A stretch of 29,703 bases of DNA from a virus. The stretch covers positions 1-29,703 of the IMG/VR virus record IMGVR_UViG_3300005253_000388; one strand, given 5' to 3'. Below, piece after piece: positions 14,811-20,737 of this stretch (position 1 is its first letter; every line of letters begins with the position of its first letter). The position numbers were made by a program, and so were the translations under genes. Below the pieces are notes generated by a model that worked only from the letters and a program-made list of their open reading frames with translations, ran no database searches and was not told the DNA's origin.

Positions 14811-14909
14811 TTACAGCAATTGATTATAAAGCGTTACCAACTCTGCTTTTTCCGCATCATAAGCATCTCTTAATACTTGCTTTTGAGCAGTAGTTAAATA
14901 GACTCCCAG
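14811..14909 (-). other. Possible small coding segment without ATG
   Basis: After the stop of the 917-residue fibre gene, the -1 frame reads LTTAQKQVLRDAYDAEKAEL, then VTLYNQLL and stop at 14811. It looks like genuine helical protein, but there is no ATG, GTG or TTG at its head. The earliest codon that could start it is a CTG at 14909, inside the fibre gene's end. It could be a gene with an unusual start, a -1 frameshift extension of the fibre, or a decayed remnant. I see no canonical slippery heptamer. Confidence 0.3.
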
Positions 14910-17647
14910 TTTGTATCATCGTAGGCACAATAAACTACATTGCTTCCACTCGCCAAAGTTGTAGAGGTATCTACTCCAGCTCCTAAATTATCACTAGAGG
15001 CAGGAAATATCTGTAATGTTTGAGCACCATTGTTTATAATTACTATTTGAAGTCCTGCTACCGCAGTTGGTAAAGTTACAGTATCATTTATATTTGCGAC
15101 TGTGGATATTTCGTTTACTTGAGCAGTCAAAGCACCTTGACCTTGTTCCTGCGTAGTGGAGGCGGTTAGTCCTGCGTTGACATCAACAGCGATGAGTTCA
15201 TCGTTTCCCATTGAGAGTGCTGATGTAGGGTCAGTTCTCCCTATGCCAACATTCTGAGAAGCATCAATAAAAATAGCACTGGTGTTGTTAGTCTGAATGT
15301 TTAAGGGGTCATTTGTAACAGTTCCTATAATTCCACCAACAGAAGAAGCAAAAAGAAATGTCTCAACACCACTTGTGCTATCTCTAACTGATAAATTACT
15401 TGGACCAGCTCTTGTTACTAATAAATCAGTTGCCGTTATATCAGATGCATCTGTTCCTGCTCCCACATGCAACAATTCTTGAGGACTCACCGTCCCGATA
15501 CCCATATTGCCATCTTTATCAACTACTACTAATTCCGTTGTCCAGTTTCTTATTCTTAAAATATCAGACGATTCTAACGCTCCATTACTGCCAGCGTCTT
15601 TTCCTCTAATTACAACTGCTGCTCTGGCTTTTGTATCGGTAAAAGGTTCCCCTTGTATCGTTAACCCAACATCAGCTGTTCCCCGAGAGCTAAAAAAAGG
15701 CTGGAAACTTGCACCACTTGTGTTATTGGACATACCAATAAACCCAGCATTATCAGGATTGGATAGTTTTATTCCAACAGAATTAGCTGCCGTCGATAGG
15801 GGAATTTCTACTTGTAAGTCAGATAAAAAAGCTGTATCTGCGTGAAGAATAACTCTATCCTCCGATTCAAATAAAACTCTTACTTCAGCTGCAGATAAGG
15901 CTCTGTTATATATTTTAACTTCATCTATTAAACCATCATAATAGTCTGTATAAGTTGGAGTATCAGCATTATTGTATCGCCTGCCTATTTGGACATCTAA
16001 AGCATTATCAAGTATAATACCAGCATTGTGAGACTTAACAGATACACCGTCTACATAGAGAGCAGTTGTTCTGGTAGTTTTAGTAAAACCAACATGATGC
16101 CACTTGGTATCATTGACAGAAGTTGCAGTTTCAGTAGTATGGACATCTCCACCAGTAGCAACCATTAAATTGCCGTCACTCTTAACTCTCATCATAAATG
16201 CCTGACAATTTACAACTTCATCTTTAGTAACAATAGCATCAAAATTAGTTATAACATCTCTTTTTACCCAGGCAAATACACTCATTACATCTGTCTCAGC
16301 TAATTCAACCAAAGGATAAGCTATTTGCTTAACATACACATCAGAACTGGCAGTCGATTGTCCATTAGTACAACCAACCATTATTAAGTTAGTTGAGTCT
16401 ATCTCGACTATTTGAGGGTAAGAACTATTACTAAATCCGTGTAAAACTTCAATATCTTTAGTCCACGTAGTTCCTTCATCAGTAGATGAATAGATATGAG
16501 TTTCATAACCCGTTGTATCATTATGAGCATAATTTGCTAAAAGAGTATCATCTGATAATCGGACTAAATCACAGGGTGTACCTGTACCTACAGGTAATTG
16601 GGTTTCCTCTGACCTTGCTGCCCAAGTTGCTCCAGCATCAGCTGAAGTTACCTTCCAGAACTTTCCTGCATTATCTCTCATAATAGCAAGTAAGTTATCA
16701 GTAAAAGAACCTCCAGATTTAAGCTGAATAATAGACATTTCCTCGCCATCAGCTGTAGTAACAGTGGCAAGGTCTGACCAAGTATCCCCATCATCACTTG
16801 AGGAAACAACATAAGTATTATCATTAGTCCAGGCGTCATAAAGAGGGACAATTATATCTCCATCACTACTCCCTCCACTTATTAAAATAGGTCTACCTCT
16901 ACAACCCCTTTGATTTGCTCCACTCTTTAAACTTATCTCCGAGCCAAAGTTAGTCCAGTCTGCTACCGTCGACTTCTTACACTTAGCTCTGGCATCAGTA
17001 TTATCCCAAGTATTATAAACAACAAGTATAGTCTCAGTTCCACTAGCATCAAAAATTAAGATATTTGCATTTCTATCATCAAGACTCGCATTGTCTGCCA
17101 CTGTAGTTGCGGCAGACCAAGTCTCACCATTATCAGTTGAACGCCTTATTGCTACTAAACCATCAGCGTCAAAAGCATGTGTACTTCCTGCTGCTGTTCG
17201 GTAAACCGAATAAAGATTTCCTGATGAATCTATATCTATTCCAGGCCATGCTTCATAGTCATCTCTACTTATTGAAGTTGGAAACATATTACGTAGAGAT
17301 TCACTTGATATATCTATACTTGTAGTCTCTGCTACGCTTACAGCATCATCTACACTATCTAAACTCAACACATGATTTGTTGTTGACGCTTCTGCCACAA
17401 CTGTTCCATCACTACCACCACTAGCAGCGTCTAAGACATTACCATTGAATTTGTAATAAGCTCGTGTGCCAACTACGGGGCTACTCTCCCCTACCTCCTG
17501 CAGAGCTGTCTCAACTTCTGTTCCTGTATAATAACTACCAGCATCAACTATCCTAACCCTCTTCGCTTTGGTAGCCGCCCCCAACACTGGAGCACCTATC
17601 AACAGTAAAGATAAAGCAACAGCTATGCTTTTATATAACTTACCCAT
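14894..17647 (-). CDS. Tail fibre/spike with Asp-box (sialidase-like) propeller nested in a LamG-like domain (917 aa)
   Basis: Residues 1-24 look like a Sec signal peptide (KLYKSIAVALSLLLIGAPVL, then GA), unusual for a phage fibre. Residues 62-106 (AYYKFNGNVLDAASGGSDGT, then LSLDSVDDAVSV) are the first strands of a LamG/concanavalin-type domain. It resumes at 452-590 (MSVFAWVKRD, WHHVGFTK, LYVDGVSV, YYDGLIDEVKIYNRALSAAE). Between them about 340 residues form a propeller with four Asp boxes SxDxGxTW at 170-177, 283-290, 335-342 and 388-395. The C-terminal third has fibre-type repeats MGIGTVSPQELLHVG (715-729) and VGIGRTDPTSALSMG (800-814), ending DDTNWESI. There is no S74 peptidase motif. I would expect binding or cleavage of surface sugar; the FRIP-type sialidase motif is not evident, so the enzyme activity is uncertain. 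GAGGT precedes the ATG, which overlaps the upstream gene by 25 bases. Composition is more A+T-rich than the neighbours. Confidence 0.85.
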   Translation of the reverse strand: MGKLYKSIAVALSLLLIGAPVLGAATKAKRVRIVDAGSYYTGTEVETALQEVGESSPVVGTRAYYKFNGNVLDAASGGSDGTVVAEASTTNHVLSLDSVDDAVSVAETTSIDISSESLRNMFPTSISRDDYEAWPGIDIDSSGNLYSVYRTAAGSTHAFDADGLVAIRRSTDNGETWSAATTVADNASLDDRNANILIFDASGTETILVVYNTWDNTDARAKCKKSTVADWTNFGSEISLKSGANQRGCRGRPILISGGSSDGDIIVPLYDAWTNDNTYVVSSSDDGDTWSDLATVTTADGEEMSIIQLKSGGSFTDNLLAIMRDNAGKFWKVTSADAGATWAARSEETQLPVGTGTPCDLVRLSDDTLLANYAHNDTTGYETHIYSSTDEGTTWTKDIEVLHGFSNSSYPQIVEIDSTNLIMVGCTNGQSTASSDVYVKQIAYPLVELAETDVMSVFAWVKRDVITNFDAIVTKDEVVNCQAFMMRVKSDGNLMVATGGDVHTTETATSVNDTKWHHVGFTKTTRTTALYVDGVSVKSHNAGIILDNALDVQIGRRYNNADTPTYTDYYDGLIDEVKIYNRALSAAEVRVLFESEDRVILHADTAFLSDLQVEIPLSTAANSVGIKLSNPDNAGFIGMSNNTSGASFQPFFSSRGTADVGLTIQGEPFTDTKARAAVVIRGKDAGSNGALESSDILRIRNWTTELVVVDKDGNMGIGTVSPQELLHVGAGTDASDITATDLLVTRAGPSNLSVRDSTSGVETFLFASSVGGIIGTVTNDPLNIQTNNTSAIFIDASQNVGIGRTDPTSALSMGNDELIAVDVNAGLTASTTQEQGQGALTAQVNEISTVANINDTVTLPTAVAGLQIVIINNGAQTLQIFPASSDNLGAGVDTSTTLASGSNVVYCAYDDTNWESI

Positions 17648-17889
17648 AATACCTCATCTGCATCCGGAACGGATGCTACTGTAAATGTTGTGGTAGTAGT
17701 ATCCTCAAAATCCTTACCACTCCCCTTTAATAATACTGATTGGTCCCTAAATACTTCCAACGTACCTGACTCATAGGGGTTGGCTACTGTAAATACTGTC
17801 GTTGCCCCATCAGTTGTAGGAGTTGGTATCTCGTGTTTTACTATGTTGCTAACGTGTAACCTTGCAAGTGATTCAGTCCAAACTGGCAT
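17623..17889 (-). CDS. Small beta-rich tail protein (88 aa)
   Basis: From the ATG at 17889 the protein begins MPVWTESLARLHVSNIVKHE, with GAGGTGTAG just upstream. The pattern TTVFTVANPYESGTLEVFRD, then FTVASVPDADEVLWVSYIKA resembles the beta-sandwich repeat common in phage fibre and collar proteins (threonine-rich strands with value-type turns). It starts two bases after the stop of the V-E-V-P repeat protein and overlaps the start of the 917-residue fibre gene by 25 bases. It is probably an adaptor or connector domain for that fibre, supplied as a separate polypeptide. This is inference. Confidence 0.65.
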   Translation of the reverse strand: MPVWTESLARLHVSNIVKHEIPTPTTDGATTVFTVANPYESGTLEVFRDQSVLLKGSGKDFEDTTTTTFTVASVPDADEVLWVSYIKA

Positions 17890-17891
17890 AT

Positions 17892-18395
17892 CTACACCTC
17901 TTTCCCACAATTACTACACCTCTCCCGAGGGACGTCCTTCCAAATTATTCTCTCCACCTCAACAGGAACGTAACTTACTTTAGGTACCCTAATTATTTCC
18001 TCCACCAATTTAGGCACCTTCACTTCAAATTCCTTCTTCACAATCATAACCTTCTCAGTTACACGATGCACTTCAAGGGGTACTTCCACCCTTTTGATAG
18101 TTACGTCCTTTACTTCCACCTTCTTATACACCGGCTTATCAACAACCACTTCCTTATTTACGAAATGGGGCACCACCACATCCATAATTACTTCATTAAC
18201 CTTTACGGTGGTAACCTCCACCGATTTATCTACATATCTGGGTATTTCAACAATCTTCTCCACAAACTTAGGGACTTCCACCCTAACCTCTTTCTTACTA
18301 ACTATCACATCTTGCACAATTAGAGCAGACATTTTCTCGGAGGTAGTTTCCATCCCTGAGGATGCACCTCCCCCTCCACCGACACCCTGTCCCAT
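17892..18395 (-). CDS. V-E-V-P repeat protein with C-terminal CxxC (167 aa)
   Basis: The start is the ATG at 18395, overlapping the upstream stop (TAATG), with GGGGGTG before it. Residues 1-15 are Gly-rich (MGQGVGGGGGASSGM). Residues about 34-158 are a run of imperfect repeats of about 11-12 residues, alternating V, E/K and P: RVEVPKFVEKIVEIPRYVDK, KRVEVPLEVHRVTEK, EVKVPKLVEEIIRVPKV, YVPVEVERI. The end is CSNCGKEV, half of a zinc ribbon. The charge-alternating valine/proline repeat resembles that of protist alveolin/articulin cytoskeletal proteins, though similarity by composition is not homology. In context, between the small head/tail proteins and the fibre genes, a fibrous structural or connector role is plausible. 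Function unknown. Confidence 0.75.
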   Translation of the reverse strand: MGQGVGGGGGASSGMETTSEKMSALIVQDVIVSKKEVRVEVPKFVEKIVEIPRYVDKSVEVTTVKVNEVIMDVVVPHFVNKEVVVDKPVYKKVEVKDVTIKRVEVPLEVHRVTEKVMIVKKEFEVKVPKLVEEIIRVPKVSYVPVEVERIIWKDVPRERCSNCGKEV

Positions 18396-18784
18396 TACGC
18401 ACCCCCACTCTTCGTAGTTATTCTTTCCAAGCAAGTGTATACATTCATCGCCGTCCCCGCTACATTTGTATATGTTAACTTAAACTTATGCCCTGCATCC
18501 AACAACTCAAGTGCAGGGAAGTCGAAGTGCCAAGCTACAGATTTACCTACGTTAAAAACGGTTGATGCAACTAAAGCTATCACGGTGTCTGATGCATCGG
18601 TATGCTCTAATTTAAAATAGTCTCCAGAACCATATTGGTCAGGAATTACCGTTATACTGTTTGCTGCACAAGCCTTATTGGAGAGGGTCATGTTTAGAGT
18701 GTAGTCGCCTGTACCACTATTTACTGTTAACTTGTAACCCTTGTAGTATGCTCCTCCATACATCACTCTCTTAGGTAACGCCAT
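18395..18784 (-). CDS. Hypothetical beta-rich structural protein (129 aa)
   Basis: The product begins MALPKRVMYGGAYYKGYKLT. It is rich in beta-type sequence (YTLNMTLSNKACAANSITVI, HKFKLTYTNVAGTAMNVYTC) without membrane segments or catalytic motifs. GGGAG lies nine bases before the ATG, immediately after dyad copy 3. Its stop overlaps the start of the repeat protein (TAATG). Position among head/tail genes and composition suggest a small virion component such as a decoration or tail-completion protein; no family is recognised. Confidence 0.65.
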   Translation of the reverse strand: MALPKRVMYGGAYYKGYKLTVNSGTGDYTLNMTLSNKACAANSITVIPDQYGSGDYFKLEHTDASDTVIALVASTVFNVGKSVAWHFDFPALELLDAGHKFKLTYTNVAGTAMNVYTCLERITTKSGGA

Positions 18785-18829: not shown

Positions 18830-19531
18830 TTAGTACCCAGGCACAATCCTACCTGTAAAAGGATTAGTCCACCACTGCCCAGCCATATTCAAGGGTTGAG
18901 ATTGAAACCCCCTCGCTATCGGTAACCAATCCTCAGCACTATGGTCACTGGTTAAACTTGCTTCATATAACGGGGGGACTATTTGGCTCCCCCAATACGC
19001 CGCATCCTCAACCTCTCTCAATGAGTAAAATCCAAATACAGTAGCTACCCCAGAAATTAAGGCATCCTTCCTCAATAGGGTTGAGGTAGCGTCATCATCC
19101 CCAAAGTCGGCAGGGTATACACTACACCTAATAGCCAAGTTATATATGGCGTCAGGTATTTGGAATAACTCAAACGTAGACCCATAGTCAACATACCAAC
19201 TAGGTAAACCCTCGGTGTAGGTAGCTGGTCGAGGTACTTCCCTATCAAAATTCCTAGCATGAACGTAGACAAGTTTACGTGAACGAGCGCCATCCCGTAC
19301 AGTCATACTATACAAGTCTTTCATCCTAGTAGGCCATGTCACCACCACACTACTAGCAGTAGTTGACTTACTTGTATCATTAGACCTCATCTCCTCATAC
19401 GTATGTAGGTCGGAGAGGTAGCCTTGTGCCCAGTTTATCCATCTATTGATACGTGCGTTGCTAACCCCATCAACAGTACGTTTAATGTTTCCCCTAACCT
19501 CATCTCTAAAGTCTTCCCTGTCCATCGCCAT
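18830..19531 (-). CDS. Head-tail adaptor-like protein (233 aa)
   Basis: The protein begins MAMDREDFRDEVRGNIKRTV. Its layout matches short-tail adaptor proteins of the gp6/gp4/gp11 kind by pattern: an N-terminal helical segment (NARINRWINWAQGYLSDLHT), then VVVTWPTRMKDLYSMTVRDG, then STFELFQIPDAIYNLAIRCS, then the C-terminal helix LRKDALISGVATVFGFYSLR. GGAGAAG precedes the ATG, which overlaps the end of the hydrolase gene by 26 bases. Such proteins sit beneath the portal and bind the tail. The family call rests on pattern and genome position. Confidence 0.7.
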   Translation of the reverse strand: MAMDREDFRDEVRGNIKRTVDGVSNARINRWINWAQGYLSDLHTYEEMRSNDTSKSTTASSVVVTWPTRMKDLYSMTVRDGARSRKLVYVHARNFDREVPRPATYTEGLPSWYVDYGSTFELFQIPDAIYNLAIRCSVYPADFGDDDATSTLLRKDALISGVATVFGFYSLREVEDAAYWGSQIVPPLYEASLTSDHSAEDWLPIARGFQSQPLNMAGQWWTNPFTGRIVPGY

Positions 19532-20227: not shown

Positions 20228-20473
20228 TTAATAAAGATGACCCCTTACAGATGCATCATAAATAAGGGTCCATGCTGTACTACCATCAGTATTTATATAC
20301 ACATCATCGTCAGCATCGTTTCCATTGTAATCCATTACCAAAAACGTTCCTTCCACAGCCTTCACCACTCCATCTGGACTTACAGCCGTCCCCTTCGTCC
20401 TCTTAATAATATTTGTTAGAGGGTCCGTCTCTCCAACAAATACAGTATTTATTACCTGCCTTCTCAAACTCAT
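20228..20473 (-). CDS. Tandem paralogue B: small head-associated protein (81 aa)
   Basis: This protein and the 80-residue protein encoded immediately upstream share 54 of about 80 residues by hand alignment (about two thirds), including ADDDVYINTDGST and IYDASVRGH near the C-terminus and M-x-LR-x-x-V-x-x-TVF at the N-terminus. The product is acidic, with beta-type sequence. GGAGGTG precedes the ATG. Position directly after the capsid protein and the 259-residue protein suggests a decoration or minor head protein. The copy differs most at residues 5-9, 23-27 and 45-52. Confidence 0.7.
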   Translation of the reverse strand: MSLRRQVINTVFVGETDPLTNIIKRTKGTAVSPDGVVKAVEGTFLVMDYNGNDADDDVYINTDGSTAWTLIYDASVRGHLY

Positions 20474-20494: not shown

Positions 20495-20737
20495 CTACAC
20501 ATGTCCCCTCACACTAGCGTCATATATCTTTACCCAAGTGGTAGAACCATCAGTGTTTATGTAAACATCATCATCAGCAGCATCTCCATTGTAACGTTGT
20601 ACGCAGAACGTTCCCTCTGGAGCAGTCACTACACCATTAGGACCAACCGCTGTCGACTCATCTCTTATAATGATGTTCGCTAATGGGTCTTTCTGCCCAG
20701 CAAATACAGTATCTACTACAGCATTCCTTAAACCCAT
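20495..20737 (-). CDS. Tandem paralogue A: small head-associated protein (80 aa)
   Basis: The upstream member of the pair. It begins MGLRNAVVDTVFAGQKDPLA and ends WVKIYDASVRGHV. AAGGAGGGGA precedes the ATG. The pair lies between the 259-residue structural protein and the hydrolase/adaptor genes. A recent local duplication followed by divergence is the simplest reading, since both genes keep independent ribosome sites and full length. It could supply heteromeric or alternative decoration of the capsid. No family recognised. Confidence 0.7.
   Translation of the reverse strand: MGLRNAVVDTVFAGQKDPLANIIIRDESTAVGPNGVVTAPEGTFCVQRYNGDAADDDVYINTDGSTTWVKIYDASVRGHV

Follow-up and report, generated by a model that had tools for sequence, protein, structure and literature searches.

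A family of short V/E/K/P repeat proteins with alveolin-like sequence, encoded beside virion genes of short-tailed phages and proposed to form an extended rod

The repeat gene and its protein

What would a phage do with a repeat protein of the kind known from the eukaryotic cytoskeleton? The question is raised by a small minus-strand gene in a virus record of 29,703 bases, the whole of which is referred to here as the window. An earlier note had described its product as a V/E/K/P repeat protein resembling alveolin and articulin repeats, and had suggested a fibrous connector or a filament-forming component. The same strand encodes a terminase, an SU10-type portal, an SU10-type adaptor, a phrog_3287 virion structural protein and a BNR/LamG protein, and on the strength of these genes the window virus is taken to be a short-tailed, SU10-type phage. 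The repeat gene and its parts are as follows.

17892..18395, minus strand: alveolin-like V/E/K/P repeat protein, 167 aa (open reading frame and family)
18324..18395, minus strand: Gly-rich head, residues 1-24, assigned from sequence; several relatives have comparable M[GA]Q..GGG heads
17919..18323, minus strand: parity-locked rod, residues 25-159, with P, E and aromatic residues on one face and V and K on the other
18240..18260, minus strand: EKIVEIP, residues 46-52, one change from the alveolin heptad EKIVEVP given in the accessible text of PMC12465100
17895..17918, minus strand: C-terminal CSNCGKEV with the CxxCG tail, residues 160-167, a candidate metal clasp with putative binding

The gene runs from an ATG at 18395 to a TAG at 17892-17894, and a mechanically called TTG start at 18434 (180 aa) is probably unused, since relatives start at the same MGQG-type site. 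The Gly-rich head (MGQGVGGGGGASSG) and the Cys-containing tail (CSNCGKEV) are as originally described. The repeat part, put at about 125 residues, is present and somewhat longer, beginning at residue 25 and reaching the first Cys after about 135 residues, and contains no Gly and no Ala, with 30% V and 38% charged residues. The repeat length is not constant at 11-12 residues: the Pro spacings are even and vary (10, 12, 18, 22, 24, among others). The spectrum of Pro positions peaks at 11.9 and 10.7 residues, which was read as steps of 10 or 12. Against the relative in L003, which is 66% identical, the gene gave a dN of 0.22 and a dS of 1.05, with 34, 28 and 74 differences at the three codon positions, a pattern by which it is judged to be under purifying selection. 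The open reading frame, this comparison and the 30 family members of shared design described below confirm that the protein is real.

Members and occurrence of the family

The family was collected through scans of viral contigs (with single proteins, alignments and the upstream gene), an adaptor scan and one genome scan. After repeats and near-repeats were set aside, 30 distinct members were retained. Of these, 29 come from viral contigs and one from a Nitrospirae MAG contig, and they were divided into groups A (n = 8, including the window), B (n = 18) and C (n = 4). All are 162-196 aa long, and 26 of the 30 carry a CxxC[GD] motif close to the C-terminus. The four group C members have no CxxCG and possess instead an insert judged helix-like by eye, as does L088. 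The Nitrospirae match, the group B member L034 on a phage-like contig, was the single match of the genome scan, and a search of 77 genomes of that phylum again gave this genome alone; it is possibly a binning error, and the host is thus not fixed by it. No family match was found in plasmids, nor in the cultured-phage collection searched by tblastn with the window protein, L005, L007 and L065, a search weakened by the low-complexity filter.

An ordinary globular tail protein family was rejected, with no support in Pfam or PHROG, where the window protein matched no such family (best PHROG E = 0.037). Two of 14 members matched phrog_37379, whose function is not assigned (best 4.4e-4). Searches of solved structures by sequence with this family found no relative: a NusA-type match in the PDB (E = 0.06) was weak and judged compositional, L005 gave one weak match to bS21 (E = 0.1), and alignment A7 gave none. 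The AlphaFold monomer of the window rod had a mean pLDDT of 51 and no confident fold, and was uninformative.

A two-residue rule governs the rod

Across the 26 rods of groups A and B, with the phase of each set by its proline majority, all 266 Pro fall on one parity. The charged residues are split by face in the same 26 sequences, Glu and Asp lying on the Pro face (E+D 591:81; E 471:55, D 120:26) and Lys and Arg on the opposite one (K+R 643:74; K 487:57, R 156:17). Aromatic residues share the Pro face (F+Y+W 212:22; F 86:5, Y 116:17), and V occupies the Lys face (713:186). The rule was first noticed in 14 sequences, and Pro counts stood at 147:0 in 15; the nine distinct sequences found after it was noticed gave 102:0, and the four further sequences of group C, with phase set by aromatics, gave 28:0. 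These sequences are kin and not independent trials, yet Pro positions, repeat numbers and lengths vary among them. The distance from the first repeat Pro to the first Cys was even in 15 of 15 sequences (118-134 residues). When 597 ORFs of at least 100 aa in the fetched DNA were ranked by two-residue alternation, the family accounted for 21 of the 23 top scores, the other two being Ser-Pro repeat proteins. Fibre-like proteins ending in long SPSxSP repeats are encoded in L027 (10169, plus strand) and L069 (950, plus strand).

Strict alternation over more than 110 residues without turn residues implies, at the level of sequence, that the rod is one unbroken extended beta-strand and not a globular fold. 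In a beta-strand, residue parity sets which edge the backbone points to. With all Pro on one parity, one edge can forgo hydrogen bonds, so that a two-stranded ribbon would fit best. Charge pairing was calculated for 25 sequences: opposite-parity (parallel) pairing gave attraction at all the odd shifts tried (-0.08 to -0.14 per residue), whereas same-parity (antiparallel) pairing was repulsive on average (+0.10). This preference follows from the split of charges by face and selects no register; in the same 25 sequences, no register stood clearly above parity-keeping shuffles.

Likeness to alveolins and epiplastins

The window protein had no match to the Pfam alveolin family IMCp (PF12314) at E = 1. 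Nine of the 14 members of alignment A2 matched it at that threshold (best 1.3e-8), and three of 14 relatives, among the matches listed, passed the curated cut-off of 21.1 bits (L005, 35.5 bits; L026, 22.9 bits; L025, 22.1 bits). None of nine L005 shuffles (four keeping composition and five keeping parity) matched. A whole-record search, which is weaker than hmmscan on proteins, gave matches at E = 1 in three of eight records and none above the cut-off. The published alveolin heptad EKIVEVP (PMC12465100, accessible text) occurs exactly nine times in 25 sequences compared with 0.12 in parity-keeping shuffles; it is present in eight of the 25 group A and B members, spacings of 10 and 12 are mixed, and the window protein has EKIVEIP once. 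The likeness to alveolin and articulin repeats put forward in the earlier note is therefore borne out, and extends beyond composition, by the L005 score with its silent shuffles and by the heptad enrichment.

Alveolins (IMC1 proteins of apicomplexans and other alveolates) share with the phage family not only this heptad but, in the available parts of PMC12465100, PMC4303705 and PMC5223771, V/P-rich repeats near 12 residues within a repeat domain of about 140 aa, a modelled monomer that is disordered and, in some of them, terminal cysteines. Unlike alveolins, the phage proteins are 162-196 aa long with hardly any head or tail, carry CxxCG where the alveolins described in those texts have a single plus a double Cys, and, in the window, lack an IMCp match and are encoded next to jelly-roll and fibre-type genes. 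Because it failed the IMCp test, the window protein is not classed as an alveolin, though it may well work in an alveolin-like manner.

The rods also resemble epiplastins (articulins, plateins and Caulobacter articulin-like proteins) in composition. Means over the 30 rods were V 23.9%, I 10.7%, charged residues 38.5%, G 0.1%, A 1.2%, L 2.6%, S 0.7% and T 4.0%, and the means published for the epiplastin medial domain are, in the same order, 25, 9, 35, 0.4, 1, 2, 1 and 3% (PMC6212826, accessible text). As in the description of epiplastins in that text, the rod is rich in V, I and acid-base dyads and nearly free of G and A (PMC6212826). As to beta or coil structure without helix, the alternation implies beta and the low-confidence AF2 model contains neither helix nor sheet; the helix-like inserts occur in group C and L088. 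Unlike strict epiplastins, the family is encoded in virus genomes, that of the window with terminase, portal and adaptor genes, and there is no epiplast. The accessible text of PMC6212826 lists epiplastin-like proteins for Caulobacter, fungi and insects and names no phage; a literature search combining alveolin or articulin with phage or prokaryote terms found no report of such phage proteins within its scope, which left out most subscription papers and bioRxiv preprints.

The repeat gene lies in a conserved block next to the adaptor gene

The genes flanking the repeat gene in the window are listed below, with U and D denoting the upstream and downstream neighbours.

18830..19531, minus strand: head-tail adaptor, SU10 type (Pfam SU10_adaptor 1.7e-12)
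18395..18784, minus strand: upstream jelly-roll protein U, 129 aa (AF2 pLDDT 80), whose stop overlaps the repeat gene start by one base (TAATG)
17623..17889, minus strand: small downstream protein D of 88 aa, whose gene begins 2 bases past the repeat gene stop (TAG-AT-ATG)
14894..17647, minus strand: large fibre/spike-type protein, 917 aa (Pfam BNR_2 1.4e-21, Laminin_G_3 2.4e-23)

A U gene ends at most 37 bases upstream of the repeat gene in 29 of the 30 members, L080 being the exception; most members helped build the profiles behind these U and D counts, and 13 of the 14 kept out of the U profiles have U. The type Ua was found in all 12 members of groups A and C, and Ub in 17 of the 18 of group B. 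Each of the 18 group B members has a Db gene downstream, and four of the 12 of groups A and C have a Da gene; L089 carries both. In the converse direction, the repeat gene is present at each of the 14 Ua loci whose contig extends far enough downstream, and two more run off the contig end. Homology between Ua and Ub, or between Da and Db, was not detectable between groups A and B, so the partners differ by lineage. Cultured phages queried with two U proteins and one D protein gave no match.

An SU10-type portal or a phrog_3287 virion protein was present in all 10 records tested (portal in 6, phrog_3287 in 8). Genes after the block vary, and the downstream proteins differ in groups A and C. Five related phages (L015, L017, L019, L021 and L023) have the adaptor and other genes in place of the block, which is therefore not essential to this virion type and looks like a virion accessory. 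Methyltransferase-like and other enzyme-like genes were recognised by eye past the adaptor in four of these block-less loci (L015, L019, L021 and L023).

The window U, the only U modelled, is predicted to be an eight-stranded jelly roll (pLDDT 80). It is structurally nearest to the cement proteins of phages KHP40 (Z = 10.8, the best VIA match), Pam1 (Z = 9.9) and GP4 (Z = 8.6), and the predicted structure has the jelly roll of a phage trimeric cement protein. It shares with the trimeric cement proteins of the podoviruses KHP30/KHP40, Pam1 and GP4 a jelly-roll or Ig-like fold and a similar size. It differs from them in being only 6-11% identical (6% to the best match, Z = 10.8), and in that its gene is tied to the repeat gene and placed after the adaptor gene, not beside the major capsid gene. 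Many other jelly rolls were also matched, including plant virus coats, Ena2A fibres and carbohydrate-binding modules; the fold is thus common enough that it alone fixes neither the role nor the place of U. Separately, a 645-aa fibre-like protein of L033 (6796-8733) also begins with a D-like domain, which suggests from sequence that such domains may be attachment modules.

A proposed virion rod and its alternatives

The connector or filament role suggested for the protein would fit this gene neighbourhood. The reading preferred here, at a probability of about 0.5, is a virion rod made of an alveolin-type two-stranded beta-ribbon, clasped by CxxC, that joins a jelly-roll base to fibre parts. The family itself, its residue alternation, the even rod lengths, the linked genes and the predicted jelly roll of the window U are established here; the ribbon geometry, dimeric state, metal, place on the virion and tether function are what we infer. 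Each chain would be a single extended beta-strand of about 118-134 residues with two unlike faces, about 40 nm long at the beta-strand rise of 0.33 nm per residue. Two chains would lie side by side in parallel with an odd residue offset, an arrangement that sets the Lys face of each chain against the Glu face of its partner along the rod. The prolines would occupy positions whose backbone faces the unpaired outer edge, and would thereby keep the ribbon two-stranded. The CxxCG tails of both chains would come together, possibly with a metal ion as clasp; in the four relatives without CxxCG the helix-like insert may do the pairing. Rad50-type zinc hooks carry a CxxC at the end of a coiled-coil rod. 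Like them, the phage protein has a single CxxC in each chain, at the tip of a long rod, which could pair two chains; it differs in its beta rod, the C-terminal position of its CxxC and the putative status of metal binding. The rod would be co-made with the upstream jelly-roll protein, which would serve as its base on the virion, and would carry or position the fibre proteins encoded downstream. AlphaFold models of alveolins gave disordered monomers and, for certain pairs, a twisted beta-ribbon (PMC12465100, accessible text). As alveolin domains are modelled as the ribbon only with a suitable partner, the unstructured monomer of the window rod was counted for the model; the alveolin PfIMC1g, however, was modelled as an unstructured homodimer, so that homodimer formation should not be taken for granted (PMC12465100).

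Four other readings were weighed. A fibre shaft of three parallel strands, wound on a trimeric jelly-roll base with its three CxxC tails at one end, would suit the likeness of the window U to trimeric cement proteins, the usual trimeric state of phage fibres, and a parity rule that any unbroken strand would satisfy. We consider this unlikely: in a closed shaft both edges would be hydrogen-bonded, which makes the exclusion of Pro from one parity less expected, and two Cys per chain would better suit the four-Cys metal site of a dimer. An extended staple that follows the surface of the capsid or tail and glues subunits by beta-augmentation instead of protruding appears improbable. Its gene would adjoin a cement-like jelly-roll gene, as is the case, and phage cement proteins have extended arms (PMC9698820, accessible text), but a regularly repeating, two-faced strand that runs unbroken for 118-134 residues exceeds what an arm needs, and fibre-type genes come after the repeat gene.

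The nearest sequence likeness is to cytoskeleton proteins, so a phage cytoskeleton, in which the protein would form alveolin-like cytoplasmic filaments as a scaffold for the infected cell, was also considered; the location of the gene inside a run of structural genes, coupled to a cement-like gene, makes this very improbable. Hardly more credence, and if anything slightly less, is given to a fibre-assembly chaperone absent from the particle. A small gene immediately before fibre-type genes could encode one, but rod length and repeat law are conserved, and the linkage is to the upstream gene and not to one fibre, the downstream proteins being variable in groups A and C.

If the two-stranded virion rod is correct, it points to a kind of phage rod absent from the literature searched, within the scope given above, in a conserved block of uncultured short-tailed phages. 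A wider proposal is tentative and in our view rather doubtful: that phages use the alveolin principle, a parity-locked parallel two-stranded beta-ribbon, as a virion rod, that the rule (one-parity Pro, face-split charges and a repeat close to 11.3 residues that is rounded to 10 or 12) governs the folding of alveolins and articulins in general, and that phage structural proteins and the repeat of the eukaryotic cytoskeleton may have a common origin. The folding of these repeats bears on the cell skeleton of the malaria and Toxoplasma parasites, and the small phage version with its sharp sequence rule offers a folding law that can be tested and a protein amenable to structural study.

Additional observations on neighbouring genes

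The N-termini of fibre-type proteins in the window (14894-17647, minus strand) and in L003 (6714), L011 (9928), L019 (11260) and L089 (4073) resemble Sec signal peptides, as judged by eye and in some cases also by a simple pattern, which is unusual for phage fibres. Upstream of the block, proteins in L033 (5111-5650), L036 (3087-3677) and L032 (2209-2823) carry an N-terminal CDRCGFxY...DC motif resembling a metal site, and a counterpart in L080 (2463-2999) has most of the cysteines replaced. Between the capsid and hydrolase genes of the window, two tandem paralogous genes (20228-20473 and 20495-20737, minus strand) encode proteins of about 80 aa.
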